The position numbers were made by a program, and so were the translations under genes. The notes under the pieces are model-generated. The model worked only from the letters and a program-made list of their open reading frames with translations, was not told the DNA's origin and searched no databases. A stretch of DNA of 64,000 nucleotides, from positions 1 through 64,000 of the forward strand of contig NZ_KZ304955.1 of assembly GCF_002723615.1 (NCBI RefSeq), given 5' to 3'. This document shows, piece after piece, positions 10,921 to 33,284 of the stretch. Positions within the stretch are counted from its first letter, which is position 1; every line of letters begins with the position of its first letter. The DNA is from Limimaricola cinnabarinus (GTDB taxonomy: Bacteria > Pseudomonadota > Alphaproteobacteria > Rhodobacterales > Rhodobacteraceae).

Positions 10921-10935
10921 TTTTGTCGACATTTT
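10921..10935. promoter_or_regulatory. TGTCGACA operator site A
   Basis: TTTTGTCGACATTTT, centred on the palindrome TGTCGACA (10924-10931), lies about 115 bases upstream of the binding-protein gene. An AT-rich stretch (10858-10920) between them probably holds the promoter. It is one of five such sites in the window, all intergenic and all next to proline/hydroxyproline genes. The IS110 relic begins directly beside it. Confidence 0.6.
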
Positions 10936-11460
10936 CGGGGGTCTTGATGATGATGAGTTGGGTCGCCCCTCCTGACGGCACTTGTGCCACGATGGCCCGG
11001 ATCGGATCAGGAAGGTTGAGCTATGATGAAGGACGTACCAATCATCGGCATCGACTTGGCCAAGCAGGTGTTCCAGCTTCACGGAGCGACCGCCGACAGC
11101 GAAGTCGTCTTTCGAGAGAAGCTGTCGCGCAATCAGTTCGTGGCATTCATGGAGGCACATCCTCCTTGCCGCGTCGCGATGGAGGCGTGCGCCACGGCTC
11201 ACCACTGGGCTCGCACTTTGATGGGTTTCGGCCATGAGGTGCGGCTGACCTTCCGGCTCCCATGCGCCAGATGGCGCGACTTTGTCTGAACCAGATCGCC
11301 GATTTGTCTCGTCGCATCGAGGAGATCGACGCTCAGATATCGGCGGCCAGCCGGCCATCGCGTTTTTCCGCGCGCATGCAGAAGATGCCCGGTGTTGGTC
11401 CCGTGACCGCCATGGCCCCGGCTGCCTTCGCACCACCGATGGAGAGCTTCCGGCGAGGCC
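10936..11460 (+). pseudogene. IS110-family transposase relic (IS1111-like), internally deleted and truncated
   Basis: The coding start is at 11023: IIGIDLAKQVFQLHGA and VAMEACATAHHWARTLMGFGHEVRL, the RuvC-like DEDD domain of IS110 transposases. About 15 residues later the frame shifts and resumes inside the C-terminal Transposase_20 domain (MPGVGPVTAM, FAPPMESFRRGR, up to about 11460). The middle and the end are missing. The left end (CGGGGGTCTTGATGATG, from 10936) closely resembles the left end of the relic at 57667, so both derive from related elements. Confidence 0.75.
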
Positions 11461-11552
11461 GCGCCAATGGCGCCACACCCGCTCCGTTTCTCACGTCAGC
11501 TTTCTCTCACCCGACCCCGCGCAAGCACGTCACCTGCGCGGGGAGTGTGATC

Positions 11553-13064
11553 TTAGGCCCAGACGTTGGGCAGCAGCGCGTTGGGGACGTTCTGGAAGCT
11601 CACGGGGCGCAGGAAGCGGCGGATCGCCATCGTGCCCACCGAGGTGCCCGAGAAGGTGGTCGCAGGGTAGGGGCCGCCATGCACCATGGCATCACCGACT
11701 TCCACACCCGTGGGGAAGCCGTTGACCAGCAGACGCCCGGCCTTGCGTTCCAGAATGCTGACAAGCCGCCTGGCCACGTCGGTGTCGGCGTCGTCCATGT
11801 GCAGGGTGCAGGTCAACTGCCCGGCGAGCTCTTGGGCAAGCTGTTCCATCTCGTCCAGATCGGTGACACGTACGACGATGCCCAACGGCCCGAACACCTC
11901 ATGGGACAGGTCGGGGTTCGCGCGCCAGTCCGCACCGGTGGTCACGAAAAGGGAGGGGGCGGCGGTGCGGCCGTCGCACTGTTTCGACAGGACGCTGCTC
12001 ACGGCACCGGTGGCGACCACGGCATCCCGGCCGCTGCGGTAGGCCTCGGCGATTCCGTCGGTGAGCATGGTTTGGCCTTCGACCTTGTCCAGGGCCTTGG
12101 CGGCGGCCGCGATGAAGGCGTCGGCCTCGGGCCCGTCCAGCATCACGACCACACCGGGGCTGGTGCAGAACTGGCCCACGCCCATGGTCAGCGACCCGGC
12201 CCAGCCTTCGCCCAAGGCGGCGGCGCGGTCGGACATGGCGTTGGGCAGCAGGAACATCGGGTTCACGGAGCCGAGCTCGCCGAAGAAGGGGATCGGCTCG
12301 GGGCGGGCGGCGCAAAGATCATAGAGCGCGCGGCCCCCGCGCAGGGAACCGGTGAAGCCCGCGGCCCGGATCAGGGGATGTTCCACGAGCGCCTTGCCAA
12401 CTTCGAGCGAGCCGCCGTGAACCATCGAGAAAGTGCCCGGATGCAGGTCGCATTTCGCCACGGCGGCGGTGATCGCGTCGGCTACCAGCTCGGCGGTCGC
12501 GGGGTGCGCTTCGTGGCCCTTCACGACCACGGGACAGCCCGCCGCCAGCGCCGAGGCGGTGTCGCCCCCGGCGGTGGAGAAGGCCAGCGGGAAGTTCGAG
12601 GCACCGAAGACCGCGACCGGGCCGATGGGACGCTGGATCAGCTTCAGATCCGGGCGCGGGAGCGGTTCGCGGTCGGGCAGCGCGGTGTCGTGCCGCCGGT
12701 CAAGGTAGTCGCCCTTGCGGATGTGCTCGGCGAACATGCGCAACTGGCCGATGGTGCGGCCGCGCTCACCCTCAAGCCGGGCGGTGGGCAGGCCGGTTTC
12801 GGCGTGGCCCATCTCGGTGATCTCGGCGCCGCGGGCGTCGATCTCGCCGGCGATGGTCTCAAGGAACCGGGCGCGGGTTTCGGAGCCGGTGTTGCCGTAG
12901 TCGACAAACGCCGCGTCAGCCGCGCGTACGGCGCGGTCGATCAGCGCGGAGTTGCCAGCGGCGAAGGACTGGCCCTCACCCGCGATGGGCGAGGAGGTGA
13001 ACCGCGCGTCTGCGTCGACCTGTTCGCCTGCGATCAGGTGTTTGCCGTGGGGCGTATAGGTCAT
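11553..13064 (-). CDS. 2-Ketoglutarate semialdehyde (2,5-dioxovalerate) dehydrogenase
   Basis: The protein has 503 residues, an NAD(P)-dependent aldehyde dehydrogenase of the KGSADH subfamily. It oxidises 2-ketoglutarate semialdehyde to 2-ketoglutarate, the last step of trans-4-hydroxyproline breakdown. Seen: SNFPLAFSTAGGDTASAL with the cofactor Lys in PVVVKGHEAHP, the catalytic Glu in FFGELGSVNP and the catalytic Cys in GVGQFCTSPGVVV. Third gene of the dehydrogenase-epimerase-KGSADH operon (51-base gap after the epimerase). It would take the product of the deaminase encoded at 28620-29558. Confidence 0.92.
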   Translation of the reverse strand: MTYTPHGKHLIAGEQVDADARFTSSPIAGEGQSFAAGNSALIDRAVRAADAAFVDYGNTGSETRARFLETIAGEIDARGAEITEMGHAETGLPTARLEGERGRTIGQLRMFAEHIRKGDYLDRRHDTALPDREPLPRPDLKLIQRPIGPVAVFGASNFPLAFSTAGGDTASALAAGCPVVVKGHEAHPATAELVADAITAAVAKCDLHPGTFSMVHGGSLEVGKALVEHPLIRAAGFTGSLRGGRALYDLCAARPEPIPFFGELGSVNPMFLLPNAMSDRAAALGEGWAGSLTMGVGQFCTSPGVVVMLDGPEADAFIAAAAKALDKVEGQTMLTDGIAEAYRSGRDAVVATGAVSSVLSKQCDGRTAAPSLFVTTGADWRANPDLSHEVFGPLGIVVRVTDLDEMEQLAQELAGQLTCTLHMDDADTDVARRLVSILERKAGRLLVNGFPTGVEVGDAMVHGGPYPATTFSGTSVGTMAIRRFLRPVSFQNVPNALLPNVWA

Positions 13065-13115
13065 GTATCTCTCCTGTTAGGTCGGATTTTCGGGTGGCCC
13101 GGCGGGCCGATCGTC

Positions 13116-14117
13116 TCAGGTCACCACGAAGCCGTGCGCATAGGGGTCACGGTCGTCGATGAAAATGGTGTTGATGCCGGTCTGGCGCGCCCAACCTCCG
13201 ATGGAGGGGATGATCGCATCCCGGTCGCCCACCTTGGCGGCGGCTTCGACGCGCCCCTTGAACAGGCTGCCGATGATGCTTTCGTGGACGAAGTCATCCC
13301 CCACCATCAATGAACCCCGCGCCGCCAGATGCGCCATGCGCGCCGAGGTGCCGGTGCCGCAGGGCGAGCGGTCGATCGCCTTGTCGCCATAAAACACCGC
13401 GTTTCGAGCATGGGCGTCGTCCCGCATCGGCGCGCCGGTCCACAGGATGTGCGACAACCCGTTGATGGCGGGGTTTTCGGGGTGTTCGAACCTGTAGGCG
13501 TCGTTCAGGGCGCGGCGCAACTCGGGGCTGTAGCCCACGAGCTCCCCGGCGGTGTAATCGGCCATGTCGCGGAAATTCTCCTGCGGTTCCACGATGGCAT
13601 AGAAATTGCCGCCATAGGCCACGTCGACGGTCACCTTGCCCAGACCCTCGACCTCGGCCACGAGCCCTTCGGCATAGAGGAAGGCCGGCACATTGGTCAG
13701 GCGGACCTCTTCCACGAAGCGCCCTTCCTGCCGGTATTCGACGGTGACCAGACCGGCGGGCGTGTCAAGCCGCAGCTTGCCCGGCTCCCGCGGGGTGACA
13801 AGACCGTTTTCCAGCGCCATGGTGACGGTGCCAATGGTGCCGTGGCCGCACATGGGCAGGCAGCCCGAAGTTTCGATGAAAAGCACCGCCACGTCGCAAT
13901 CGTCGCGCGTGGGCGGATAGAGGATCGCGCCGGACATCATGTCGTGGCCGCGCGGCTCGAACATCAGGCCCGTGCGGATCCAGTCATAGTCGGCAAGAAA
14001 ATGGGCGCGCTTCTCGATCATGTTGGCGCCCTCAAGACAGGGGCCGCCTCCCGCTACCAGGCGCACGGGGTTGCCACAAGTGTGGCCGTCGAAACAAGAA
14101 AAACTGTGGTTGGTCAT
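13116..14117 (-). CDS. 4-Hydroxyproline 2-epimerase (proline racemase family)
   Basis: The protein has 333 residues, cytoplasmic. It epimerises trans-4-hydroxy-L-proline to cis-4-hydroxy-D-proline. Both catalytic cysteines are present: C90 in MCGHGT and C253 in DRSPCGTGTSARMA, the pair expected for a two-base epimerase rather than a dehydratase. The start overlaps the stop of the dehydrogenase gene by four bases. The product would be oxidised by that dehydrogenase. The operon's upstream region carries a TGTCGACA site (15413). Proline racemase activity is an alternative, but the surrounding pathway favours hydroxyproline. Confidence 0.93.
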   Translation of the reverse strand: MTNHSFSCFDGHTCGNPVRLVAGGGPCLEGANMIEKRAHFLADYDWIRTGLMFEPRGHDMMSGAILYPPTRDDCDVAVLFIETSGCLPMCGHGTIGTVTMALENGLVTPREPGKLRLDTPAGLVTVEYRQEGRFVEEVRLTNVPAFLYAEGLVAEVEGLGKVTVDVAYGGNFYAIVEPQENFRDMADYTAGELVGYSPELRRALNDAYRFEHPENPAINGLSHILWTGAPMRDDAHARNAVFYGDKAIDRSPCGTGTSARMAHLAARGSLMVGDDFVHESIIGSLFKGRVEAAAKVGDRDAIIPSIGGWARQTGINTIFIDDRDPYAHGFVVT

Positions 14118-15361
14118 GGTCTGTCTTTCAGAAAACGCTGTGGCGCGAATGGCGTCAGATCAAGGGCAGGGGGGCGTCCGGCGACCAGATCGGCCACCAG
14201 TTCGGCGGTGCCCGCCGATTGGGTCAGCCCCAGATGCCCATGCCCGAAGGTCAGCACCAGATCGGGGTGGCGCGGGGCCGCGCCGATCACCGGCAGGCTG
14301 TCGGGCATGGAGGGCCGGAACCCCATCCACGTCACGCCGCCCGCGGTGTCGAGCTCGGGCAGGAAATCGCGCGCCTTGTCGAGCAGGATCTGCGCCCGTT
14401 TCATGTTCGGAGGCAGGTCAAGCCCGCCCAGCTCGACCGCGCCGCCGACGCGCAGGCCGTCGCCGATGCGGGTCACGACGAAACCGTGGGACGAGAATGT
14501 CAGATGCGTCCGCAGATCAAAGGCGCTGGCCGGCAATGTGGTGTTGTAGCCGCGCTCGGTCTCTAGCGGCAGCTTGAGGCCAAGGGGCCGCAGCAGGGTG
14601 TTGGACTGCGCCCCGGCGGCCAGCACGACCTTGTCGAACTGCGCCGTACCGTTGTCGTGCGTCACGGTCACGCCCGGCCCGCTGGTGTCGAGCCCGCGCA
14701 CTGCCACTTGCAGGATCTCGCCTCCACCCGCGACCACACGTTCGGCCAGGGTCTTGACCCAAAGCTCCGGATCGGTGGTGTTGAACCAGTCGGGGGTGAA
14801 CACGGCCGAGGTGAACTGCGGATTGAGGCCGGGCTGCACCTCGCGGATTGCCTCGTGCGAGGTGAGGGTTTCAAAGCGGATGCCCGCCGCGGCGCGTTCG
14901 TCCCAGCCGGGTTTGGCGGCGGCAAGTTGGCGCGGGCTGTCGTAAAGCTGAAGCTGGCCCTCGTGACGGATCAGATCATGCATGTCATGGGCTTCGAGCA
15001 CCCGGTCGAGGGCCTGCGCGGAGAGTTGCATCATCGCGGTCTGGGCGTCCCGTGCGGCGGCGTAGCGGTGCGGAGACGAGGCCCCGGCAAACCGCAGCAG
15101 CCACGGCAGGAGTTTCAGCGCATAGGCCGGACGGATCGAAAGCGGGCCCAGAGGATCAAGCAGCCATTTCGGCGCTTGCTTCCAGATGCCCGGGATGGCC
15201 AGCGGGATGATGTCGGCAAAGGCAAAGGCTCCCGCGTTCCCCCGCGACGCACCCTGGGCCACCCCGTCGGGGTCGAATAGGGTGACGTGATGCCCGTCGC
15301 GCATCAGGGCCTGCGCGACGCTGACCCCGATCACTCCTGCACCGACAATCCCTATGCGCAT
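14114..15361 (-). CDS. FAD-dependent D-amino-acid (D-hydroxyproline) dehydrogenase
   Basis: The protein has 415 residues of the DAO/DadA family. N-terminal FAD-binding MRIGIVGAGVIGVSVAQAL and ASRGNAGAFAF; C-terminal GFRPSMPDSLPVIG and FGHGHLGLTQSAGTAELVADL, typical of D-amino-acid dehydrogenases. Likely role: oxidise cis-4-hydroxy-D-proline made by the epimerase to pyrroline-4-hydroxy-2-carboxylate, passing electrons to the respiratory chain. First gene of its operon, divergent from the GntR regulator, with the operator site between. A broken relative of its first 50 codons survives at 7547-7889. Confidence 0.9.
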   Translation of the reverse strand: MRIGIVGAGVIGVSVAQALMRDGHHVTLFDPDGVAQGASRGNAGAFAFADIIPLAIPGIWKQAPKWLLDPLGPLSIRPAYALKLLPWLLRFAGASSPHRYAAARDAQTAMMQLSAQALDRVLEAHDMHDLIRHEGQLQLYDSPRQLAAAKPGWDERAAAGIRFETLTSHEAIREVQPGLNPQFTSAVFTPDWFNTTDPELWVKTLAERVVAGGGEILQVAVRGLDTSGPGVTVTHDNGTAQFDKVVLAAGAQSNTLLRPLGLKLPLETERGYNTTLPASAFDLRTHLTFSSHGFVVTRIGDGLRVGGAVELGGLDLPPNMKRAQILLDKARDFLPELDTAGGVTWMGFRPSMPDSLPVIGAAPRHPDLVLTFGHGHLGLTQSAGTAELVADLVAGRPPALDLTPFAPQRFLKDRP

Positions 15362-15412
15362 GGGCCACCTCTCGTCCTCATTGCCTCATGTCTTATCGGT
15401 CCCGACTCTCTA

Positions 15413-15420
15413 TGTCGACA
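15413..15420. promoter_or_regulatory. TGTCGACA operator site B (divergent promoter)
   Basis: Palindrome TGTCGACA followed by CAAATAATACATTT, between the dehydrogenase operon (start 15361, reverse) and the GntR gene (start 15497, forward). A regulator binding here could control both its own gene and the catabolic operon. Confidence 0.6.
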
Positions 15421-15496
15421 CAAATAATACATTTGGCAATTTCCCATGGGCTCGCATAAAACCGGCAGCGATACTGGTTTTGCACGGGACGGATTG

Positions 15497-16219
15497 ATGA
15501 GCGCAGCGAGTAGCGTGAATGGAGCAAAAAGCAAGCACGGGCGCAAGCGGGGTTCCGGCGTCGCGGTGGTCTATGAGACCCTGCGGCGGGAGATCATTGA
15601 TCTGACGCTGGCACCGGGCAGCCCCATCGACGAAGTGCAGCTTTCCGAACGGTTCGAAATGTCGCGCACCCCCGTGCGCGAGGCTCTGGTGCGGCTGGCG
15701 GCGGAAAACCTGATAACGATCCTGACCAACCGCGCCACGGTCGTCTCGCAGATCGATTTCGTCAACATGCCGGCCTTCTTCGATGCGCTGACGCTAATGT
15801 ACCGTGTCACCACACGGGGGGCGGCGGAAAACCGGACGGAGGCCGATCTTGAAAAGATCCGTAAGCTGCAGGCCGCCTTCGCGCGCAGCGTCGACTCAAG
15901 CGACGCGCTCGAGATGATCTCGACCAACCGCGACTTTCATTATGGCATCGCCGAAGCGGGCCGGAACAAGTATTACATCAACCTGTTCGCCCAGTTGCTC
16001 GATGACGGGTTGCGCATCCTGCGGTTGTATTACTCGTCATTCAATGATGAATTGCCGCGCGAGTACGTAACCGAACATGATGGCCTGATCGACGCGATCG
16101 CGCGGCAGGATGTAGAGGCGGCAGACGCCCTTGCCCTGGCCCATGCGGACCAGATCGTGAAACAAATCCAGTCCTACGTCGCCGCCGACCGTCGCACCAG
16201 TACCGGGCTGGCGCTTTAG
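15497..16219 (+). CDS. GntR-family (FCD subfamily) transcriptional regulator, probable hydroxyproline regulator
   Basis: The protein is 240 residues from the ATG at 15497 (upstream GGGACGGA); an ATG at 15446 would add 17 residues. N-terminal winged helix with the hallmark FEMSRTPVREALVRLAAENLI near residues 50-70, then an all-helical FCD effector domain (ISTNRDFHYGIAEAG..KYYINLF, REYVTEHDGLIDAIARQDVEAADALALAHADQI) with metal-binding-type His residues. It is divergent from the hydroxyproline operon, and TGTCGACA in the shared gap recurs before four other proline/hydroxyproline transcription units. I infer that it represses these in the absence of a Hyp-derived inducer. Confidence 0.88.
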   Translation: MSAASSVNGAKSKHGRKRGSGVAVVYETLRREIIDLTLAPGSPIDEVQLSERFEMSRTPVREALVRLAAENLITILTNRATVVSQIDFVNMPAFFDALTLMYRVTTRGAAENRTEADLEKIRKLQAAFARSVDSSDALEMISTNRDFHYGIAEAGRNKYYINLFAQLLDDGLRILRLYYSSFNDELPREYVTEHDGLIDAIARQDVEAADALALAHADQIVKQIQSYVAADRRTSTGLAL

Positions 16220-16234
16220 AACGCCTGGTGAAAC

Positions 16235-17371
16235 TGAGGTGGTCCCCATTTCCTGGACAAGTTCGCGGCGCTGCTGAGCTTGCCTGTTGATCATGCCGCC
16301 GCTTTCAAGCCGGGGCCCGCATGGGCCTCGGCCGGTGTTCGTCCACCGAGCGCCGTGTGAGGCCGCTCAGTGTTGTAGAAATCGATCCACCTTCCGATAC
16401 CCGCCCGGGCCGCCGAGCCGGTCTCGAACGCGTTCAGATAGGCGCACTCGTATTTCAGGGGCCGCCATAGGCGCTCGATCATGACGTTATCCATCCAGCG
16501 TCCACGGCCGTCCATCGAGATCTTCACCGTTGCGTCCAGCAAAAGCTGGGTGAAGCGCGGGCTGGTGAATTGGCTGCCTTGATCTGAGTTGAAGATCTTC
16601 GGCAGCCCGTGGCGCTGCATCGCGTCCTCCAACGCCTCGATGCAGAACTCGACATCCATCGTGTTTGACAGCCGCCAGGAGAGAACGCGGCGCGTCGCCC
16701 GATCCATGATCGCGACGAGATGAAGAAAGCCCCTTTGCATCGGAATGCAGGTGATATCCGCGCACCAGACCTGGTTCGGTCGGTCGATCACCCTGCCGCG
16801 CAGCAGGTAAGGCCATCTGCGGTGCTCCGGGTGGGGCATGGTGGTGCGTGGCCTCTGGCAGACCGCGCGTCGATCAGCTTCATCAGCGCGAGGTTCAGCG
16901 AGCTCTCCTCCTGTCTCAGCCCATACCAGGCCGAGCGGCTGATGCCGATCAACGCGTATTGTCGACTGACGGCCAAGGCGGGGTGCCGAGGTTCGATCAT
17001 CTCTCGCCTCCGGGCCACGCTCACCGGCCGGAGGCTTTGGCCAAAAAATCGCGCTCGACCACGCGCTGCCCGATCTTCGTGTGAAGTTTCTCGATCTGAC
17101 GCTCCTTCTCGGCGGCGTGCGCTCCGGCCTTGCCAGAGAATTTCCCGGCCATGCCCGCGAGCGCTTGGCGCTTCCAGGCATTGATTGCCGTCTGATGCAC
17201 GCCGTGCTTCGCCACCAGTTCTGCGACCGTCGCCTCACCCCTTATGGCCTCGAAGGCCACCTTCGCCTTGAACTCGGCGCTGTAGTTCTTCCGTTTGCCA
17301 GCCACGCTGTTCGTCCTCGTCATCCTTGGCGACAAGCCTGGCAGTGGGTCAGGATTTCGGGGGCCATCTCA
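16235..17371 (-). mobile_element. Inactive IS3-family insertion sequence with terminal inverted repeats
   Basis: Ends match as imperfect inverted repeats: TGAGGTGGTCCCC at 16235-16247, and TGAGATGGCCCCC read inward from 17371 (11 of 13 identical). Inside on the reverse strand lie orfA (17335-17021; KRKNYSAEFKAKVAFEAIRGE) and orfB. orfB starts normally at 17024 (SVARRREMIEPRH, ISRSAWYGL). It then loses about 35 codons and shifts frame near 16850, and resumes as QRPRTTMPHPEHRRWPYLLRG through WCADITCIPM and NSDQGSQFTSPRF to AALGGRTPAEAHAG. No convincing target duplication was seen. It lies just after the GntR gene. Confidence 0.85.
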
Positions 17372-17604: not shown

Positions 17605-17643
17605 TTGACAGAATATGCGTCTCGTATAATCATTGTCGACAAT
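17605..17643 (+). promoter_or_regulatory. Promoter-like region with TGTCGACA operator site C
   Basis: TTGACA (17605-17610) and TATAAT (17625-17630) stand 14 bases apart, closer than the usual 16-18, so the promoter may be weak or activated. Directly after the -10 lies the perfect 12-bp palindrome ATTGTCGACAAT (17632-17643, core 17634-17641). It would overlap the transcription start, a position suited to repression. It serves the oligopeptide transporter operon starting at 17668. Confidence 0.6.
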
Positions 17644-17667
17644 AATAGCATAAAGGGAGAGAATTGT

Positions 17668-19416
17668 ATGATCACGTCTTTCGACGGGGCACGCCGGGCG
17701 GCCTTTGCAAGCACAGCCGTAGCGCTGGTAATGGCCGGGGCGATGCCCGCCTTGGCCCAGGGACAGGATGGCGGCGTTCTGCGCATTCTCGGCTCCGGCG
17801 ATCTGGGCCGGCTGGACCCGATGACCGTCGCCACCGTGATCGACAACAACTTCGTGCGCGCCACGGCTCGCACCCTGATCAGCTACGAAAGCTCGATGGA
17901 CGAAGACGCGCGCATCGCGCCCAAGGCCGACCTTGCGACCGAAGTGCCGGAGCCGTCCAACGACGGGCTGACCTACACCTTCACCCTGCGTGACGGCATC
18001 ACTTGGGACGCGCCCGACGGCGCCCGCCCCATCGTCGCCGAAGATTTCGAACGCGGCCTCAAGCGGACCTGCAACCCCTTGCTCGGCACGCCGTTCCTGA
18101 CCTACTACGTCTCGCTGATCGAAGGCATGGACACGTTCTGTGATGGCTTCGCCGAGGTCGAGCCGACTGTCGGGGCCATGAAGGACTACATCCAGAACAA
18201 CGACATCTCCGGCATCGAGACCCCGGACGAGGACACGGTGGTGTTCAACCTGACCGAAGAGGCCGGCGACTTCATCTACATGCTCTCGCTCTCTGCAGCG
18301 GCGCCTGCGCCGGTCGAGGTTCTGGACTACCTGCCCGACAGCCCCGAATACCGCGAGAACTTCATCTCGTCCGGGCCTTACACATTGGCCGAGAATATCC
18401 CCGACGTGCAGACCCGTCTGGTCCGCAACCCCTCCTGGAATCCTGATAGCGACCCGCTGCGCGCAGGCTACGTCGACGAGATCGAGCTGACCTTCGGGCT
18501 TCAGGCCGATGCGGCGATCCAGCAGATCCAGGCCGGTGACGCCGATATGCTCTACGACATCCTTGTGCCGCCGGCGCTGATCCCGATGTTGCAGGCCACC
18601 GGCGACGACAAGCTGGTCGCGATCTCGACCGGGCGCACGGCCTTCATCTTCATCAACACCAAGTCCTCCAACGCGGACGGGGCACTGGCCGATCTGCGGG
18701 TGCGTCAGGCGCTCAACTATGCGATCAACAAGGCCGCCGTTGTGCAGCAGCTGGGCGGGCCCTTCGTGGCCGCACCCCAGAACGGGATCTTCGGACCCGG
18801 TCTGCTGGGCTATCACGATTTCGACCTCTACCCTTCCGAGGATGCCAAGGGCGATCCCGAAAAGGCCCGCGAACTGTTGGCCGAGGCGGGATATCCCGAC
18901 GGGATCAGCCTGAAGATGCCGTTCCGCAACCTCAACAACGAAAGCGCCATCGCGCAGACGTTGCAGGCGAGCTTCGCCGAGGCCGGTATCGAGATCGAGC
19001 TGATCCCCGTCTCTGCTGCGGACTACTACTCCAAGTATATGACCAACCCGCAGAACACGACCGACGGCGCATGGGACATCGCCCCGGTGAGCTGGTCGCC
19101 CGACTGGGCCGGCGGGGCCGCGCGCTCGGTCTTCCAGCCGCAGTTTAGCTATGACGGCCGGCACCAGACCTACAACTACACCGACTACAACAACGATGAG
19201 GCGAACGCCCGCGCCAAGGAAGCGATCAACGCCACCTCCGTCGAAGAGGCCGCGCGCCTGTGGGGTGAGGTCGATGAGATCGTGATGGCCGACGCACCGG
19301 TGGCGCCGTTCATCTCGCAGAACGTGGTCGTCTATCACAGCGACGCGGTCGAGAATTTCGAGCCCTACGCCCTGGGCGCGAATGGTGACTGGACCAACGT
19401 CTGGCTCGATCGCTGA
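17668..19416 (+). CDS. Peptide ABC transporter substrate-binding protein (SBP family 5)
   Basis: The protein has 582 residues. Signal peptide of about 30 residues ending PALAQ, then the family 5 (DppA/OppA) fold: GSGDLGRLDPMTVATV, EVPEPSNDGLTYTFTLRDGITW, the ADLRVRQALNYAINKAAVV block and ending NWLDR-type C-terminus. Start at 17668 chosen for AAGGGAGA upstream and the signal peptide. First gene of an operon with fused ATPase, two permeases and two proline-specific peptidases, so the ligands are probably Pro/Hyp-rich oligopeptides (inference). Confidence 0.92.
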   Translation: MITSFDGARRAAFASTAVALVMAGAMPALAQGQDGGVLRILGSGDLGRLDPMTVATVIDNNFVRATARTLISYESSMDEDARIAPKADLATEVPEPSNDGLTYTFTLRDGITWDAPDGARPIVAEDFERGLKRTCNPLLGTPFLTYYVSLIEGMDTFCDGFAEVEPTVGAMKDYIQNNDISGIETPDEDTVVFNLTEEAGDFIYMLSLSAAAPAPVEVLDYLPDSPEYRENFISSGPYTLAENIPDVQTRLVRNPSWNPDSDPLRAGYVDEIELTFGLQADAAIQQIQAGDADMLYDILVPPALIPMLQATGDDKLVAISTGRTAFIFINTKSSNADGALADLRVRQALNYAINKAAVVQQLGGPFVAAPQNGIFGPGLLGYHDFDLYPSEDAKGDPEKARELLAEAGYPDGISLKMPFRNLNNESAIAQTLQASFAEAGIEIELIPVSAADYYSKYMTNPQNTTDGAWDIAPVSWSPDWAGGAARSVFQPQFSYDGRHQTYNYTDYNNDEANARAKEAINATSVEEAARLWGEVDEIVMADAPVAPFISQNVVVYHSDAVENFEPYALGANGDWTNVWLDR

Positions 19417-19431
19417 TCTGCGCTGATCGAC

Positions 19432-19464
19432 AGGGGCGCGCCGCAGGCTTTGTGGCGCGCCTCT
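19432..19464 (+). promoter_or_regulatory. Hairpin after the peptide-binding protein gene
   Basis: An 11-bp stem with one G-U pair (AGGGGCGCGCC, 19432-19442, with 19454-19464) is followed by TCTTCTTCTT. It lies between the binding protein and the ATPase gene and could be a leaky terminator or an mRNA-stabilising end, raising the level of binding protein over transporter. Confidence 0.55.
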
Positions 19465-19505
19465 TCTTCTTCCCCCTTCCCTCGAAGCAGCCCCAAGGAC
19501 CCGCC

Positions 19506-21353: not shown

Positions 21354-22345
21354 TGGGACAGTTCCAGACCCGCAGCCGGAAAGCCGCCACCGAAGCCCAA
21401 ACCGCCGAGGCCGAGGACGCGCCGGTGGTCGTGCAGCGCTCGTCGGCGTCGCTGACGTTCCGGCGGCTGGCCCACGATCCGGCGAGCGTCATCGCCTTTA
21501 TGTTCATCATCGCGCTGGTGGCCTTTGCCGTGGGCGCGCCGCTGGTCGAAGCCTGGACCGGCCACGGGCCGATCGAGCAATACCGCGAAACCGCCTTGTC
21601 GCCGGTGGGCTTGCCCGTGGGGCCAAACGCCGAGTTCCTGCTGGGCGGGGACCAGCTGGGCCGCGACGTTCTAGTGCGCATCGCTTATGGCGCGCGGGTG
21701 TCGCTGCTGGTGGGTGTGCTTGCCTCGCTTCTGGCGGCGACCATTGGCGTCACCGTGGGCATGCTCGCTGGCTACTTCGGCGGTTGGGTCGACGTGGTGC
21801 TGGGCCGGCTGATGGATCTGGTGATGTCCGTGCCGTTTCTGCTGTGCGCGCTGGCGCTGGTGTCGGTGTTCGGGCCGTCCTTGCCACTGTCGGTCTCGGT
21901 CATCGTGTTCTTCAGCTGGACGACCATCGGCCGTGTGATCCGCGCAGAGACGACATCCCTCGTGCGGCGGGAGTTCGTGCAGGCGAGCCGCTCGCTCGGG
22001 GCGGGGCACGGCTACATCCTGCTGCGGGACATTCTGCCGAACCTCGCGCTCACGATCATCATCTACACGACCATGCTGATCCCGAATGCGATCGTGTTCG
22101 AGGCGACGCTGTCCTATCTGGGGATGGGCATCGTGCCACCGACACCGTCTTGGGGCGGGATGCTGGCCGAGGCGGGCGCGAACTCGATCTATCTGGTGGC
22201 GTGGTGGCTGGTGGTCTTCCCCGGTCTGGCGCTGCTGGCCTCAACGCTGGCGTTCAACATTCTGGGCGACGGGTTGCGCGATGCGCTGGACCCGTCCGCA
22301 CGCGGCCGCGCGGTGCTGCGCAAGAAGAAATTGACGAAGGGATAA
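21353..22345 (+). CDS. Peptide ABC transporter permease (DppC type)
   Basis: The protein has 330 residues. A cytoplasmic N-terminus, then a helix (SVIAFMFIIALVAFAVGAPL), a periplasmic loop with LLGGDQLGRDVLVRIAYGARVSL that is diagnostic of DppC/OppC permeases, and the EAA loop VRREFVQASRSLGAGHGYILLRDILPN. The ATG at 21353 overlaps the ATPase stop; a GTG one codon earlier is possible. It forms the channel with the permease at 22349. Confidence 0.92.
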   Translation: MGQFQTRSRKAATEAQTAEAEDAPVVVQRSSASLTFRRLAHDPASVIAFMFIIALVAFAVGAPLVEAWTGHGPIEQYRETALSPVGLPVGPNAEFLLGGDQLGRDVLVRIAYGARVSLLVGVLASLLAATIGVTVGMLAGYFGGWVDVVLGRLMDLVMSVPFLLCALALVSVFGPSLPLSVSVIVFFSWTTIGRVIRAETTSLVRREFVQASRSLGAGHGYILLRDILPNLALTIIIYTTMLIPNAIVFEATLSYLGMGIVPPTPSWGGMLAEAGANSIYLVAWWLVVFPGLALLASTLAFNILGDGLRDALDPSARGRAVLRKKKLTKG

Positions 22346-22348
22346 GAC

Positions 22349-23302
22349 ATGATTGCGTTTCTTATCAAACGGTTGACCTTCGGTGTGTTCGTTCTGTTGT
22401 CGCTCAGCCTGTTCGTCTTCTTCCTGTTCTTCGTGGCCCCCGGCGATCCGGCCCGCGTTGTGGCGGGCGACAAGGCCCCCGAGGCACAGCTGCAGCAGGT
22501 ACGCGAGAATCTCGGCCTTGATCGGCCCATGCCCGAACAATATCTGCGTTTCGTGACCCGCGCCGCCCAAGGTGATCTGGGCTTTTCCTATCGCAATCGA
22601 CAGCCGGTCACCGATCTGATCATGCGACGGATTCCGGTCACCGTGTCGCTGGTGTTTGGCGGCGTGCTGTTCTGGCTGGCGCTGGGGGTGCCCATCGGCA
22701 TCATCTCGGCGCGCAATCCAGGCACGTGGAAGGACAGGCTGGGGCAGGTCTTCATCCTGCTGGGCCTGTCGTTTCCGACCTTCGTTCTGGGGATGCTGGC
22801 GCTTTATACGCTGTATTTCCTGCCGCGCACCGCAGGTTTCACCCTGTTCCCGCCCGGCGGCTACGCGCCGTTTCTGGAGAACCCCGCCAAATGGGCCTGG
22901 CATCTGGCCCTGCCCTGGACCACGCTGGCGCTGGTCGTGGCGGCGATCTATGCGCGCCTGACGCGGGGCCAGCTTCTGCAGGTGCTCGGCGAGGATTACA
23001 TCCGCACCGCCCGCGCCAAGGGCCTGACCGAACGGCGGGTCGTCTATCGCCACGGGATGCGCGCGACGCTGACGCCGCTGGTCACGCAACTGGGAGCCGA
23101 TATCGCGGTGCTTCTGGGCGGGGTGATCGTCATCGAACAGGTGTTCGGCCTGCAGGGGGTCGGCGCGCTGGCCGTGCAGGCGGTGCAGAACCAGGACCGG
23201 CCGATCATCATCGGCGTGGTCATGCTGGGCGGGCTGTTCATCGTCACAACCAACCTGATCGTTGATCTGCTTTATGCAGCGCTTGATCCGCGGGTCAGGT
23301 AA
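22349..23302 (+). CDS. Peptide ABC transporter permease (DppB type)
   Basis: The protein has 317 residues. The N-terminal FLIKRLTFGVFVLLSLSLFVFFLFF and the following GDPARVVAGDKAPEAQLQQVRENLGLDRP are standard for DppB/OppB. The EAA-type region is GEDYIRTARAKGLTERRVVYRHGMR. It starts three bases after the DppC-type gene. With the fused ATPase and the binding protein it makes a complete importer. Confidence 0.92.
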   Translation: MIAFLIKRLTFGVFVLLSLSLFVFFLFFVAPGDPARVVAGDKAPEAQLQQVRENLGLDRPMPEQYLRFVTRAAQGDLGFSYRNRQPVTDLIMRRIPVTVSLVFGGVLFWLALGVPIGIISARNPGTWKDRLGQVFILLGLSFPTFVLGMLALYTLYFLPRTAGFTLFPPGGYAPFLENPAKWAWHLALPWTTLALVVAAIYARLTRGQLLQVLGEDYIRTARAKGLTERRVVYRHGMRATLTPLVTQLGADIAVLLGGVIVIEQVFGLQGVGALAVQAVQNQDRPIIIGVVMLGGLFIVTTNLIVDLLYAALDPRVR

Positions 23303-23332
23303 ATTTCACTTTCATTACAGGCAGGCAAACCG

Positions 23333-24613
23333 ATGCAACGAATTCCCGGCTATGACACGCGCGACCGGATGGTCGATGTTCGCCTGGACTGGGACAAGCC
23401 CGACGGCCCGACGATCGAGGTCTTCGCGCGTGAGGTGACGGCCCCGGGCCGGATGCAGGAGGATCTGCCGGTGCTGGTGTTCCTGCAAGGCGGGCCGGGG
23501 GGCAAATCCCCGCGACCCAACCGCGGCCCGGCCTGGCTTGATGTGGCCACGAGGCGCCATCGCGTGCTGTTGCTGGACCAGCGCGGCACAGGCCGGTCAA
23601 CCCCGGTGCAGGGCCGTCAGTTCGCCGCCATGGGGGCCGAAGAGGGCGCGGATTACCTGTCGTGCCTGCGGGCAGACAGCGTGGTGAAGGACTGCGAGCA
23701 CATCCGCAAGACGCTGTTTGACGGCAAGCCGTGGTTCACGCTGGGACAAAGTTACGGCGGGTTCTTGACCCTGTCCTATCTGTCCCACGCGCCCGAGGGG
23801 CTGGCGGGCTGTTACGTCACCGGCGGTCTGGCGGGGGTCAAGGCCGATGCAGCGACGATCTATCGCCACACCTATCCCCGCGTGGCCCACAAGAACGCGC
23901 TCTATTTCAACCGCTACCCCGGCGATCGCGCCAAGGTGGACCGCCTCGCCGACCGGCTGGCGCGGGGCGATGTGCGCCTGCCCGATGGGGACGTGCTGAG
24001 CGTGCGGCGGCTGCAATATCTCGGGATGGAGCTGGGCACCGTCGAGGGGTTTGAGACGTTGCACTGGCTGCTGGATGAAGCCTTTGCCGCCGATGGCGAA
24101 GTGTCGGACAGTTTCCTGGGCGCGGTGCGCGGCATGACCGCCTTTGACGACAACCCCCTGTTTGCCGCGATTCACGAAGGGATCTACGGGCAGGGCGGCG
24201 CGCGTACTGGCTGGGCCGCCGAACAGCTGCTGTCCGAATTCCCGGCCTTCGCCGACGACGCCCGCCCGCTGCTGTTCACCGGAGAGATGATCTATCCGTG
24301 GATGTTCGACGACATCCGCGCGCTGCGGCCTTTCAAACCGGCCGCTGAAGCGCTGGCGCAGCGGCCGCTGGATGCGCCGCTTTACGATCATGCCCGTCTG
24401 GCCGAAAACGCGGTTCCGGTCTGGGCGGCGGTCTATGCCGACGACATGTATGTGGACATGAGCCTGTCCATGCAGACCGCCCGTGACGTGGGCAACGTGC
24501 GGGTCTGGCTGACCAACGAATACGAACACAACGGATTGCGTCACACCGGTCGCGTTCTGGAGCATCTCTTTGCGATGGAGGACTCACTCGATGGACATGC
24601 ATACCTTGGTTGA
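23333..24613 (+). CDS. Proline iminopeptidase-like alpha/beta hydrolase (peptidase S33)
   Basis: The protein has 426 residues, cytoplasmic. Removes N-terminal proline (or hydroxyproline) from peptides, by family. Motifs: oxyanion-type LQGGPGGKSP at 51-60, DQRGTGRS at 82-89, nucleophile S140 in GQSYGG, and a C-terminal His in NEYEHNGLRHTG. The S33 proline iminopeptidases of this longer (~430) class share the cap domain seen between. Its end overlaps the aminopeptidase P gene by 23 bases. Location behind a peptide importer and among hydroxyproline genes points to Pro/Hyp peptide degradation. Confidence 0.9.
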   Translation: MQRIPGYDTRDRMVDVRLDWDKPDGPTIEVFAREVTAPGRMQEDLPVLVFLQGGPGGKSPRPNRGPAWLDVATRRHRVLLLDQRGTGRSTPVQGRQFAAMGAEEGADYLSCLRADSVVKDCEHIRKTLFDGKPWFTLGQSYGGFLTLSYLSHAPEGLAGCYVTGGLAGVKADAATIYRHTYPRVAHKNALYFNRYPGDRAKVDRLADRLARGDVRLPDGDVLSVRRLQYLGMELGTVEGFETLHWLLDEAFAADGEVSDSFLGAVRGMTAFDDNPLFAAIHEGIYGQGGARTGWAAEQLLSEFPAFADDARPLLFTGEMIYPWMFDDIRALRPFKPAAEALAQRPLDAPLYDHARLAENAVPVWAAVYADDMYVDMSLSMQTARDVGNVRVWLTNEYEHNGLRHTGRVLEHLFAMEDSLDGHAYLG

Positions 24614-26366
24614 TCACGGCACCCGCCTTGCCGGCCTGCGCGACTGGATCGCGGGGCAGGGGCTGGACGGCGTGATCCTGACCAGCGCCGATGCCTTCCA
24701 AAACGAGGACGCGCCAGAGCATGATCGCGACATTGCCTGGCTCACCGGCTTTACCGGCACGCTCGCCCATGCGCTGGTGATGGCCGAGGGCGCGGTGTTT
24801 CTGGTCGACGGGCGCTACGGCATTCAGGCGACGCAGCAGGTGGACGGGGCCGACTGGACCTTCGGCCACATCCATGACGCGCCGCTGGGGGACTGGCTGC
24901 GTGACCGTGCCGCAGCCCGCAACATCGGCTATGATCCGATGCGGTGGAGCGTGGCGCAGATGGAGAGGCTGCGCGACAAGGCTGGGACGGCGACGCTGAC
25001 ACCCTGCGACGACCCCTTCGATGCAATCTGGAGCGACCGGCCCGCGATGCCGCAAGCTCCGCTGCGCGCGATGCCCGAGGCGGAAGCGGGCCGCAGTGCC
25101 GGCGACAAGCTGCAATGGGTGGCGCAGGCGTTGGACGGGCTTGGCGCCGGGGTCTGGGTCGAAACGCGGCCCGACAACATCGCTTGGCTGTTCAACATGC
25201 GCGGGGGCGACGTGGCGATGAACCCGCTGCCCCTGTCCTTTGCCGCCATCACCGCCGAGGGCGCGGCCCATTGGTTCATCGACCCGTTCAAGTGCAAGGA
25301 CATCCGGCCCGAAGGTGTGATCCTCCACCCCATCGAGGTCTTTATTCCCTGGCTGAAGGATCAGACCGTGGCCTGCGCCTTCGACCCCGCCTTCACGCCG
25401 GACGCGGTCGAACAGGCCTTGGGTGAGAGCCGTCATGCGAAGGGCCTCGTGACCATCGAAAAGGCGCTGAAGACCCGGGCGGAACTCGACGGGTTCCGCC
25501 GGGCGCATCTGGACGACGCCGTGGCCATGGCGCATTTCGGCCACTGGCTGTCAGAGGTGATGCGCGGGGAGGACCGGCCGGATGAATCCGCTGCCGCCGC
25601 CCAGCTCGAAAGCTTCCGCGCCCGATCGGACGCGTATCAGGAGCCGAGCTTTGTCACCATCGCCGCGACCGGCGGCAATGCGGCGATGTGCCATTACCAC
25701 CCGCCTGCACAGGGCTCGGCCCGCCTGTCGCGCGACGCCGTCTTCCTGTGCGATTCCGGCGGTCAATACGCCGGCGGCACCACCGATGTGACGCGGACCT
25801 ATGCCTTCGCCCCGGTGGGCGACGAGGTGCGCCGCATCGCCACGGCGGTCCTGCGCGGGTTCATCGCCCTGTCGCGGGCGCAATTCCCCGACGGGACGAT
25901 GCCGCACCAGATCGACGCGCTGGCACGGGCGCCGCTGTGGGACATGGGGCTGGATTACGATCACGGCACCGGTCACAACGTCGGTCACAATCTACTGGTG
26001 CATGAACACCCCCACCGGATCGGACAAAAACCCAACCCGTTCCCGCTTCGATCGGGCCATGTTCTGACCCTCGAACCGGGGTTCTACGAGGCGGACGTCT
26101 GGGGCATTCGCGTGGAAAATCAGGTCGAAGTGGTCGCACGGGATGCGGGCTTTATCGGATTCGATCCGATGACGCTGGTGCCGATTGACCTCGGTCTTTA
26201 TGACCTCGACGCCCTGGACGCCGGAGAGCGGGGCTGGATCGACAGCTATCACGCGCGGGTGCGTGAGGCTGTTGCACCGCTCCTGTCCGGAGCGGTGCGG
26301 GACTGGTTGATCGCGGCGACGGCACCCCTGGATCAGCGCGCGCCCCAGCTGTCCGAGAGCCGGTAG
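24591..26366 (+). CDS. Xaa-Pro aminopeptidase (aminopeptidase P, three-domain form)
   Basis: The protein has 591 residues. Releases the N-terminal residue from peptides with proline in the second position. Two creatinase-like N-terminal domains precede a pita-bread M24 domain with metal ligands in [19 protein letters not shown] (two Asp), [16 protein letters not shown] (His), LTLEPGFYE (Glu) and [10 protein letters not shown] (Glu). The length matches the eukaryote-like APP1 form rather than the shorter PepP. The start at 24591 (GAGGA upstream) lies within the end of the iminopeptidase gene, so the two are coupled. The last 34 bases overlap tail-to-tail with the gene at 26333. Confidence 0.93.
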
Positions 26367-27361
26367 CCGCGCGGCCAGGGATCATCGGGATCCAGCATGT
26401 GCTGATGGGTCCCGGTGATCCAGCCCCGGCCCGAGATTTCGGGGCGAATGCCGGTCCGGTCGCCGATTTTCGCATCGCCCAGGATACGGCCCGAAAAGGT
26501 CGAGCCGATCAGCGATTCCGCCGTTAGCCTGTCGTCCGGCCCCATTTTCCCCCGCGCCGACAAAAGCGCCATACGCGCCGAGAGCGCCGTGCCCGTGGGG
26601 GAGCGGTCAACCTTGCCGGGGCGGATCGCCACCGCCTGACGGCTGCGCATTCCGTTCTCGTCGTGGCCCATCGGACCGGCGAACAGGCAGAAGGAATAGT
26701 GGTTCCAGTCCGGGTTCGTCGGGTGGCGGAAGGGCAGGGCCTTGGTTGCGGCCTCGGTGATCTTCACGCCCATGCGGGCAATCTTGTGCGCCTCATCCTC
26801 GACCAGCGACAGGCCAAGCGCTTCGGCGTCCACGACCACGAAGCTGTCTCCGCCATAGGCGGTGTCGACGGTCAGCGTGCCGATGCCCTCGACCTCGAGC
26901 GTGGCATCCAGCCGGTCTGCATAGCTGGGCAGGTTCTCGACAAAGATGCGCTGCGCCTTGCCGCCGGAACATTCCGCGCGGACCTGAACCAGACCGCCCG
27001 GCGCTTCGAGCACCATTTCCGTCACCGGCTCCTGCATCGGCACCAGCCCGCTGTCGAGCAGCACAGTGGAGACGCAGATGCTGTTGGAGCCGGACATCGG
27101 CGGCGTGTCCTCGGGTTCCATGATGATAAAAGCCGCATCGGCGCGGGGGTCCTTGGGCGGCACCAGAAGGTTCACGTGCCGGAAGACACCGCCGCGCGGT
27201 TCATTGAGGACGAAGTCGCGCAGCGTGCCGTCCCGTTCGATCCGGCGGGATTGCTCCCAGATCGTGTCACCGGGTGGCGGGGCCACGCCGCCGACGATGA
27301 CATCGCCGACTTCGCCTTCCGCATGGGCGGATATGATATGAACGATCTTGCTGCTGCGCAT
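26333..27361 (-). CDS. Probable trans-3-hydroxy-L-proline dehydratase (proline racemase family)
   Basis: The protein has 342 residues. Proline-racemase fold, but both catalytic cysteines are replaced: S90 in PMSGSN and T256 in [14 protein letters not shown]. Known family rule: Thr at the second position marks dehydratases, which make pyrroline-2-carboxylate from trans-3-hydroxy-L-proline, whereas Cys-Cys enzymes racemise or epimerise. The product would be reduced by the enzyme encoded divergently at 27528. The shared upstream gap carries the TGTCGACA site at 27442. The Ser at the first position is a departure from the usual Cys, so activity should not be taken for granted. Confidence 0.85.
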
Positions 27362-27441
27362 GGGTCCTCCGACTAAAGCCCGCGGACCGGCAAGGTCGTG
27401 CCAGTCCTGTCGAACAGGACCCTAGGATGGGGCCCGGATGT

Positions 27442-27449
27442 TGTCGACA
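27442..27449. promoter_or_regulatory. TGTCGACA operator site D (divergent promoter)
   Basis: TTGTCGACATAAAAAATACT stands between the dehydratase-like gene (start 27361, reverse) and the reductase gene (start 27528, forward). The palindrome is followed by the same kind of A-rich, AATAC-containing tail as site B. It could control both directions. Confidence 0.6.
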
Positions 27450-27527
27450 TAAAAAATACTAGCTTGCTGAATGACCCCCGCCCGCCTATCCAGTTCACGA
27501 AGTATCCCAAGGGTAAAGGAGGGTCGG

Positions 27528-28565
27528 ATGTCTCATGAGTTGGTTTCGGTCGAGGCGTTGACCGAGCGGGTCGAAGCGATTTTCGTCACGGGCGGGTTTT
27601 CGGCGGATCACGCGGCCGCCCTTGGCCGGGCGATCGTCGCGGGAGAGCGGGACGGGTGCAAGTCCCACGGCATCTACCGCATCGCGGGCTGTCTGCGTAC
27701 GCTGGAAGCGGGCAAGGTCGTGCCCGACGCCGATCCGGAGGTGGCAGAACCGGACGGGGTCATCATTCGGGTGGACGCCAAGGGCGGGTTTTCGAACCTT
27801 GCGTTCGCGCGCGGGCTCCCGGTGCTGGCCGAGCAGGCGCGCAAAAGCGGTTTGGCCGCGCTGGTGATCAACGACTGCGTGCATTTCGCGGCGCTCTGGC
27901 CCGAGATCGAGGACATCACCGCCGAAGGGCTGGCAGGGATGGCCATGTGCCCCAGCTACGCCACCGTCGCGCCGGTCGGCGGCACCGAGCCCTTGCTCGG
28001 CACGAACCCCTTCGCCTTCGGCTGGCCGCGCGAGGGCAAGAGCCCTTACGTTTTCGACTTCGCCACCAGCGTCGTCGCCCGGGGCGAGATCGAGCTTTAT
28101 CGCCGCGCCGGCAATCCCCTGCCCGAGGGCTGGGCGTTGGACGCCGACGGCCAGCCCACCACCAGCCCCGAAGCCGCACTGGACGGGGCGATGCTGCCCT
28201 TCGGCGGGCACAAGGGGTCGGCGATCTCGACGATGATCGAATTGCTGGCAGGCGCATTGATCGGGGATTTCACCTCGGACAAGGCGCTGGAGTGGCTCGG
28301 CACGACGACGATCGCCCCCCGCCATGGTGAGCTTGTCCTCGCCTTCGATCCCGAGCGTTTCGCAGGGGGCCGCGCCGATCCGCGCGCGACGGCAGAAGCC
28401 TTTATCGGCGCGATCGAAGGGCAGGGCGCGCGCCTGCCCGGCCAGCGCCGTTTCGCCGCCCGGGCCGAAGCCCTGCGCGACGGGATTCCCCTGACCAAGG
28501 CCGAGCTGGACGAACTCGACCGGCTGGAAAAAGAAGGCGCGGCTCGAGCGGCCACGCCTCGTTGA
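27528..28565 (+). CDS. Ldh-family oxidoreductase, probable delta-1-pyrroline-2-carboxylate reductase
   Basis: The protein has 345 residues of the malate/L-lactate/ureidoglycolate dehydrogenase fold. The catalytic His lies in KSHGIYR, and FGGHKGSAISTMIELLAG is the C-terminal family signature. Context: it is divergent from a hydroxyproline dehydratase-type gene whose product is pyrroline-2-carboxylate, and relatives in hydroxyproline loci reduce this to L-proline with NAD(P)H. Start at 27528 after AAAGGAGGG; an upstream ATG lacks a binding site. It ends in a clear terminator at 28591. Other 2-ketoacid substrates cannot be excluded. Confidence 0.88.
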   Translation: MSHELVSVEALTERVEAIFVTGGFSADHAAALGRAIVAGERDGCKSHGIYRIAGCLRTLEAGKVVPDADPEVAEPDGVIIRVDAKGGFSNLAFARGLPVLAEQARKSGLAALVINDCVHFAALWPEIEDITAEGLAGMAMCPSYATVAPVGGTEPLLGTNPFAFGWPREGKSPYVFDFATSVVARGEIELYRRAGNPLPEGWALDADGQPTTSPEAALDGAMLPFGGHKGSAISTMIELLAGALIGDFTSDKALEWLGTTTIAPRHGELVLAFDPERFAGGRADPRATAEAFIGAIEGQGARLPGQRRFAARAEALRDGIPLTKAELDELDRLEKEGAARAATPR

Positions 28566-28588
28566 TCGTTTCCTGAACAAGATCGGAC

Positions 28589-28615
28589 CAGACACCCGCA
28601 GGGGTGTCCGGTTTT
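28589..28615 (+). terminator. Rho-independent terminator after the reductase gene
   Basis: Stem GACACCC (28591-28597) with GGGTGTC (28602-28608), loop GCAG, extended by C/G pairs and followed by GGTTTT. It sits between two convergent genes and probably ends the forward transcript. Confidence 0.75.
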
Positions 28616-28619
28616 CGCA

Positions 28620-29558
28620 TCAGGCCGCTTTGGACCACTCGGCATACCACGTCTTGAACAGGTCATACTGGACGTCGGCAAAGGCGCGCTGCGCATCGCT
28701 CAGCTCATCGGTCTCATTGAAGTGCAGGCGGTATTCCTCGTTCCCGCCGCGCACCATCAGGTGCTTGTAGTAGAGCACGAGGTCGCCTTCCTCGTCGAAC
28801 TTGGACAAGACATAAAGCGCCTGCTCAAGCTCTTGCGCGCGGCGGCGGGCGTCCACGTCACCCTTGGCGGCTTTCTGCGACAGCTCGACCAGATGCAGCA
28901 CTTCCTTGGGCAGCACATTGCCGATCCCGGTGATCGCACCAGTCGCGCCGCAATTGACGAAGCCGTGGAACACGGTGGTGTCGACGCCGACCATCAGCGT
29001 CACGTCGGGGTTGCCGCTCGAGATATGCTCGGCCGCATAGGTGAGGGCCGCCTTGCCGCCGAATTCCTTGAAACCAACGAGGTTCGGGTGCTCGCTCTTG
29101 AGGGCAAAGAACAGGTCCGCGCCGGTGGAGAAGCCGTAGTGGGGCGAGTTGTAGATCACCGCTGGCAGGTCGGGGGCGGCAGACAGGATCGCCTTGAAGT
29201 GCGCCTTTTGTGCAGGGATCGACGCGCCGCGCGACATCACGCGGGGAATCAGCATCAGACCGGCCGCGCCGACGCGGGCGGCGTGGGCGGCGTGTTCGGC
29301 GGCAATCCTGGTGTTCACGGCACCGGTGCCGACGACAACCTTGAGGCCCGCCTTCACCAGGGCTTCCACGCCCTGCATGCGTTGCTCGTCGGTCAGCAGG
29401 GGCCAGTCGCCCATGGAGCCGCAATAGACGACAGCGGACATGCCTGCATTTACAAGCTCACGCCCCTTGCGGACGAGCGCATCGAAATCGGGGGTGCGAT
29501 CCTCTCTGCAAGGGGTCATCAGTGCTGGCATGGTGCCAGTGAAAACAGCATTGTCCAT
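28620..29558 (-). CDS. Probable pyrroline-4-hydroxy-2-carboxylate deaminase (DHDPS family)
   Basis: The protein has 312 residues, a class I Schiff-base (beta/alpha)8 lyase. Predicted Schiff-base K164 in VGFKEFGG and the Tyr Y136 in AVIYNSPHYG are in the expected places. Within hydroxyproline clusters this DHDPS subfamily deaminates delta-1-pyrroline-4-hydroxy-2-carboxylate to 2-ketoglutarate semialdehyde. That is the step missing between the dehydrogenase at 14114 and the KGSA dehydrogenase at 11553. Start after AAGGA; its upstream region holds TGTCGACA site E. Confidence 0.87.
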   Translation of the reverse strand: MDNAVFTGTMPALMTPCREDRTPDFDALVRKGRELVNAGMSAVVYCGSMGDWPLLTDEQRMQGVEALVKAGLKVVVGTGAVNTRIAAEHAAHAARVGAAGLMLIPRVMSRGASIPAQKAHFKAILSAAPDLPAVIYNSPHYGFSTGADLFFALKSEHPNLVGFKEFGGKAALTYAAEHISSGNPDVTLMVGVDTTVFHGFVNCGATGAITGIGNVLPKEVLHLVELSQKAAKGDVDARRRAQELEQALYVLSKFDEEGDLVLYYKHLMVRGGNEEYRLHFNETDELSDAQRAFADVQYDLFKTWYAEWSKAA

Positions 29559-29658
29559 CCGTCATTCCTTTATTCTACGGCATCGCCTCAATAATCCGTC
29601 CCCGTTTACGGGGCCACGGCATCGGGTTCCGGCTTACATAAGCCTGTTGCATACTCAA

Positions 29659-29666
29659 TGTCGACA
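29659..29666. promoter_or_regulatory. TGTCGACA operator site E
   Basis: AATGTCGACAAAAAAAT, about 100 bases upstream of the deaminase gene. It lies between that gene and the decayed efflux-pump relic, which appears unrelated. Confidence 0.55.
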
Positions 29667-29686
29667 AAAAAATCGGACAGAGTATT

Positions 29687-33281: not shown

Positions 33282-33284
33282 GGG

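Follow-up and report, generated by a model that had tools for sequence, protein, structure and literature searches.

The window analysed here, which is the 64-kb stretch of contig NZ_KZ304955.1 of Limimaricola cinnabarinus from position 1 to 64,000, contains five copies of the palindrome TGTCGACA among genes for hydroxyproline catabolism and peptide import. They are located at 10924, 15413, 17634, 27442 and 29659, so that the exact count and positions reported in an earlier note on this DNA are borne out. The note had also described all five as intergenic, and this holds once the start codons are set at 10807, 15497, 17668 and 27528. In our judgement, the open reading frames (ORFs) with starts at 15446, 17605 and 27471, as well as the ORF ending at 10897, are extensions to earlier start codons; the start at 15446 has no in-frame counterpart in the close relative Thalassorhabdomicrobium marinisediminis. 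Each palindrome is treated below as the core of a 20-base putative operator, with the score of a matrix described in the next section.

Operator 1 (10918..10937; exact core, score 18.6), seen in the window genome only, is located upstream of a minus-strand amino-acid/hydroxyproline ATP-binding cassette (ABC) importer. The periplasmic binding protein (10001..10807, minus strand, ATG 10807) matches TIGR01096 below its cut-off and shares 67-76% identity with hyp-cluster counterparts. It is followed by the ATPase and two permeases (7889..9938, minus strand), of which the ATPase and one permease have family-level matches and both permeases match PF00528. The cis-3-hydroxyproline dehydratase of the AcnX type (5857..7566, minus strand; NF051439, 892 bits for a cut-off of 700) lies downstream of these genes and probably belongs to the same operon. 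A short ORF beside operator 1 (11023-11289) resembles an IS110-type transposase fragment by eye, with no Pfam match.

Operator 2 (15407..15426, score 21.0; kept in the close relative) separates a divergent catabolic operon from the regulator gene hypR (15497..16219, plus strand, ATG 15497), which encodes a GntR/FCD protein. The catabolic operon is composed of three minus-strand genes: a flavin adenine dinucleotide-dependent D-amino-acid dehydrogenase (14114..15361; PF01266, NCBIfam matches below cut-off), from its context a candidate D-hydroxyproline dehydrogenase; a 4-hydroxyproline epimerase (13116..14117; NF010578, 602 bits for a cut-off of 376); and an aldehyde dehydrogenase (11553..13064; PF00171, no NCBIfam cut-off passed, 61-67% identity in other hyp loci), which the context suggests to be of the alpha-ketoglutarate semialdehyde type.

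Next to hypR, and before the peptide operon, comes a transposase gene (16291-17238) with an rve and rve_3 integrase core, IS3-like by our own label. T. marinisediminis lacks this gene, and its peptide operon is only ~200 bases away from hypR, implying that an insertion has separated operator 3 from hypR in the window while leaving the operator in place. Operator 3 (17628..17647, score 23.9), whose palindrome is kept in the close relative, stands ~30 bp before dppA. With its core at 17634, it directly follows a promoter-like site, TTGACA-17-AATCAT (17605-17633; a consensus match only), which is the position expected for a repressor; of this site, the TTGACA part alone is clearly kept in the close relative. 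The peptide operon on the plus strand encodes an ABC importer with the binding protein DppA (ATG 17668), a two-domain ATPase and two permeases (17668..23302), an alpha/beta hydrolase (23333..24613; PF00561, no NCBIfam match) that is a candidate prolyl peptidase by context, and an M24 peptidase of the aminopeptidase P family (24570..26366; PF00557, PF16189, PF16188 and PF01321).

Operator 4 (27436..27455, score 18.1; kept in the close relative) lies between two divergent genes, those for a trans-3-hydroxyproline dehydratase (26333..27361, minus strand; NF047722, 613 bits for a cut-off of 550) and for an Ldh_2 family protein (27528..28565, plus strand, ATG 27528; PF02615, matched on a longer ORF), a candidate pyrroline-2-carboxylate reductase. 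Copies of the latter that are 63-71% identical occur in 12 HypR-bearing loci. Operator 5 (29653..29672, score 23.1; kept in the close relative) is found ~100 bp before hypD, the predicted pyrroline-4-hydroxy-2-carboxylate deaminase gene of the DHDPS family (28620..29558, minus strand; PF00701, 75% identity in the Sinorhizobium meliloti hyp cluster). Passages of PMC4113996 name DHDPS-family deaminases and tie pyrroline-2-carboxylate reductases in neighbourhoods of this kind to the malate/lactate dehydrogenase 2 superfamily.

The extended palindrome

Dinucleotide shuffles of the window (n=100) give a mean of 0.81 and a maximum of 3 copies of TGTCGACA, in agreement with the earlier expectation of one copy or fewer by chance. 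Genome-wide, the many intragenic copies that the earlier note would have counted against its proposal do occur for the bare 8-mer, which has 76 copies in the 3.80-Mb genome. Seventy-five of these were located, and the stretches surrounding the 70 that lie outside the window were read; 67 of the 70 are inside ORFs predicted by a crude caller based on third-codon-position GC. The intergenic fraction is therefore 5/5 in the window and 3/70 elsewhere (Fisher p 3.2e-6). What distinguishes the five sites is the A/T-rich extended palindrome, not the bare 8-mer. The A-rich tail noticed earlier is genuine, and in relatives it forms half of a symmetric A/T-rich flank. The AT-flanked pattern TGTNNACA, which was fitted to the five window sites, has eight matches genome-wide including those five.

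To score the extended form, a 20-base matrix was constructed. Its training set consisted of 25 sites with an exact core close to the GntR ortholog (cut-off E 1e-60), found in 20 of the 24 other genomes that have this ortholog; the core word was taken from the window, and the window itself was kept out of the set. The loci not used were L084, with an exact copy beyond the distance limits, and L094, L100 and L103, with no exact copy. The matrix ranks the five sites first in the window with scores of 18.1-23.9, the next best being 11.3, and the highest score in simulated 64-kb sequences (n=20) is 16.1. The 70 located copies outside the window all score below the five, and the best of them (17.3) is within a predicted ORF. 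For imperfect cores, the analysis covered a sample only.

The regulator and the hypD promoters

The GntR protein encoded at 15497 carries a GntR DNA-binding domain (PF00392) and an FCD domain (PF07729), as for HypR of the FadR/FCD subfamily. It is 63% identical to the GntR of the hyp cluster on pSymB of S. meliloti 1021, whose gene is, by its place in the cluster, the published hypR. When the pSymB protein was searched against the 11 FCD loci of the present genome, the window GntR was the best match at 261 bits and the next reached 73.6. These comparisons identify the window GntR as the HypR ortholog at the sequence level. Palindromes also adjoin the hypR ortholog in S. meliloti pSymB (scores 21.2 and 33.1) and in Paracoccus denitrificans (31.7). 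The operator core, GT-CG-AC, has a 2-nt GT/AC spacing, which agrees with the GT-N2-AC spacing given for HypR-group operators in passages of PMC4494728. The earlier choice of this protein as the obvious binder is thus supported by orthology and by the palindrome, which stands beside most hypR orthologs and before the deaminase gene, and HypR is the predicted ligand of the sites.

The hypD promoters offer a clean natural experiment, since they divide by the presence of HypR. A close deaminase homolog occurs in 68 of 292 genomes of the order, the window genome included. We examined ~300 bases upstream of 69 hypD copies from 67 other genomes (the 68 listed and one copy beside hypR in genome G264), taking a GntR match at E 1e-60 as presence of HypR. 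With HypR (25 copies, 24 genomes), TGTCGACA is found upstream of hypD in 21/25 and a matrix score of at least 12 in 22/25; without it (44 copies, 43 genomes), the corresponding counts are 1/44 and 0/44. The difference in the core is significant at a Fisher p of 9.5e-13, and the matrix was built partly from the same loci as this comparison. The copies in HypR genomes without the exact core are those of G247, with the variant TGTGCACA scoring 20.5, G170, G284, which has a site before the dehydrogenase gene instead, and the second copy of G264. Some of the upstream regions without a HypR site (L182, L188 and L195, and also L165) have a TGTGGATTTTGTAT-like stretch in common, which a different regulator may recognise.

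Conservation in the orthologous loci of relatives, on which the earlier note had made its proposal depend, is observed: the core is present beside most hypR orthologs and, in 25 HypR loci of relatives, upstream of hypD in 20/23. T. marinisediminis keeps counterparts of the sites at 15413, 17634, 27442 and 29659 (4/5), the aligned stretches being 80-91% identical overall; for this species and Pelagibacterium, 11 stretches around listed sites were read. Taken together, the orthology of HypR and its co-occurrence with the hypD site point to a HypR regulon of the known kind. Operators before hypR, before hypD and before the dehydrogenase/epimerase/aldehyde dehydrogenase genes, which characterise such a regulon, are found at 15413 and 29659.

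Extent of the regulon

We consider it highly probable, judging from sequence and comparative data, that the five palindromes serve as operators for HypR (15497-16219), an FCD-type GntR repressor controlling five hydroxyproline/peptide units and released by hydroxyproline or an early product. A HypR dimer would bind the GT-CG-AC core and its A/T-rich flanks, either next to the promoters of five units or overlapping them. The first unit is the hydroxyproline importer, probably including the cis-3-hydroxyproline dehydratase gene; the second is hypR itself with the divergent operon for D-hydroxyproline dehydrogenase, epimerase and aldehyde dehydrogenase; the third and fourth are the operon of the peptide importer and peptidases and the gene pair for trans-3-hydroxyproline dehydratase and reductase; and the fifth is the deaminase gene. 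HypR may then leave the DNA when its FCD domain binds hydroxyproline or an early product, which the analogy with S. meliloti suggests to be D-hydroxyproline. Peptides and free hydroxyproline would subsequently enter the cell and, after cleavage of the peptides, be turned into 2-oxoglutarate or proline. According to passages of PMC5343134, S. meliloti HypR is a repressor with hydroxyproline as inducer; passages of PMC6608401 give D-hydroxyproline or a later product as its likeliest effector and state that the 2012 work on S. meliloti did not test DNA binding.

The earlier note had placed peptide import, peptidases and three hydroxyproline routes under one regulator. The sites indeed precede the genes for free amino-acid (hydroxyproline) import, for the trans-4 and trans-3 routes, for peptide import with peptidases and for the deaminase, with the cis-3 enzyme encoded downstream of the importer genes; the wide spread, however, is limited to a lineage. 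As to the word proline in the name then given to the regulon, its basis is the peptidases together with the candidate pyrroline-2-carboxylate reductase, since the other located exact copies (70/71) score lower.

Several observations weigh against the broad regulon. In the HypR loci of relatives, the core is upstream of the importer in 0/12, of the dehydrogenase in 1/17 and of the trans-3 dehydratase in 0/7, being almost confined to hypR and hypD, which makes the wide spread of sites a feature of the window lineage, known from two genomes. Control of the importer is read from the window genome alone, as the T. marinisediminis stretches L017, L128 and L129 gave no importer genes. The matrix has an exact core by construction. 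High scores also occur away from hyp genes, at palindromes without a recognised hyp neighbour: in T. marinisediminis (22.5; L130, 12055), Pelagibacterium xiamenense (20.7; L135, 8415) and Devosia (19.9; L141, 8745, and L143, 8762). The T. marinisediminis contig concerned (C4) carries a group of exact copies in or near genes, two of which match TniB and TniQ; its strongest site is not an obvious promoter site because the TniQ and alcohol dehydrogenase genes on either side both point their 3' ends toward it. Last, no site precedes the peptide binding-protein gene in Shinella, Sinorhizobium sp. RAC02 or Arthrobacter. Several of the units that lack the core in relatives sit inside operons there, and downstream units may be co-transcribed or otherwise controlled. 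When the aldehyde dehydrogenase genes of relatives were searched for the core in the same way as the importer and dehydrogenase genes, the outcome was again mostly negative. In its stead, TTGTATAC-like sequences stand before certain of the importer and aldehyde dehydrogenase genes (L125, 13410-13440; L110, 7448; L115, 7487), possibly a variant HypR core or the site of another regulator.

A narrower regulon, in which HypR governs only the deaminase gene and hypR while the importer, peptide-operon and trans-3 sites are weak or idle, would account for this restriction in relatives and for the sites at 10924 and 27442 having the lowest scores of the five, the former, at the importer, being known from one genome. 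We regard it as unlikely, since three of the four sites other than that of hypD are kept in T. marinisediminis, all of them outscore the 70 other located genomic copies, and dpp-linked sites recur in other genera. Still less likely is that a different FCD/GntR protein binds the five sites. FCD operators resemble each other in their TKGT/ACMA boxes, as described in passages of PMC4494728, and 11 FCD genes were identified in the genome; yet no such site was found in the ~3.4-kb stretches around the ten others, where scores reach at most 10.8, as against 23.9 and 21.0 for the sites of the HypR locus, and across genomes the hypD site follows the presence of HypR and sites adjoin hypR orthologs. 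The other FCD regulators were accordingly rejected as likelier binders. Clustering by chance of a frequent genome word, for which only the 76 copies speak, has a negligible probability given the shuffles, the matrix ranking, the lower-scoring and mostly intragenic copies elsewhere and the conservation in relatives.

Comparison with known systems and the peptide branch

A broad HypR regulon in the window shares with that of S. meliloti, described by White et al. in 2012 as cited in PMC5343134, an orthologous regulator, the same palindrome beside the regulator gene and homologous genes for importer, dehydrogenase, epimerase, deaminase, aldehyde dehydrogenase, dehydratase and Ldh_2 protein. It differs in that sites scoring at least 9 only flank hypR in the 40-kb pSymB stretch, whereas the window has five operators for five units including the peptide importer and peptidases. 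HypR regulons are known from PMC5343134, passages of which list hypY, hypS and hypX as further members; these presumably correspond to the trans-3 dehydratase, Ldh_2 and aconitase X genes of the window. Prolyl peptidases and a proline di/tripeptide permease are likewise predicted as part of the gammaproteobacterial HypR regulons in that source, but the permease there is called PdtP, whereas the window has an ABC peptide importer in an alphaproteobacterium. The HypR of Streptomyces coelicolor, as presented in passages of PMC6608401, is also a FadR-subfamily repressor of hydroxyproline genes and of a putative collagenase gene, and is reported to recognise the motif CTNTGC(A/C)ATGTCAC, which differs from the window palindrome. 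What is less usual here is the reach of the regulon, in which the importer, the hydroxyproline routes and the peptide importer with aminopeptidase P each have putative operators of their own. Our literature search turned up no paper that gives TGTCGACA as the operator of HypR or describes a peptide branch in alphaproteobacteria, although the motif may well be in RegPrecise or in supplements. The analysis supplies a precise, testable operator for alphaproteobacterial HypR. It would also bring under HypR an ABC importer and peptidases for which peptides containing proline or hydroxyproline can be predicted as substrates.

The peptide-binding protein has no relative at E 1e-120 in 291 genomes of the order. 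Plasmid records contain 13 relatives at E 1e-80, and eight of their loci were read. A matrix site precedes the binding-protein gene in 4/8, those of Martelella, two Devosia and Rhizobium sp. ACO-34A; in Rhizobium sp. ACO-34A the peptide operon adjoins both hypR and hypD. The gene of a distant Aminobacter protein (39%) has no site upstream. We give about an even chance to the wider proposal that HypR here is a master switch of a collagen-like peptide economy, comprising ABC import, prolyl peptidases and three hydroxyproline isomer routes with one operator per dispersed unit, and that the peptide module joined HypR control separately from gammaproteobacteria, perhaps more than once, to judge by the dpp-linked sites of Martelella, Devosia and Rhizobium.

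Beyond hypD, the window also carries genes for hydantoinase/oxoprolinase A and B, adjacent to an ABC importer of the Peripla_BP_4/BPD_transp_2 type (31614-38994), and homologs of these genes, 80-85% identical, occur near hypR in Pelagibacterium xiamenense (L016).

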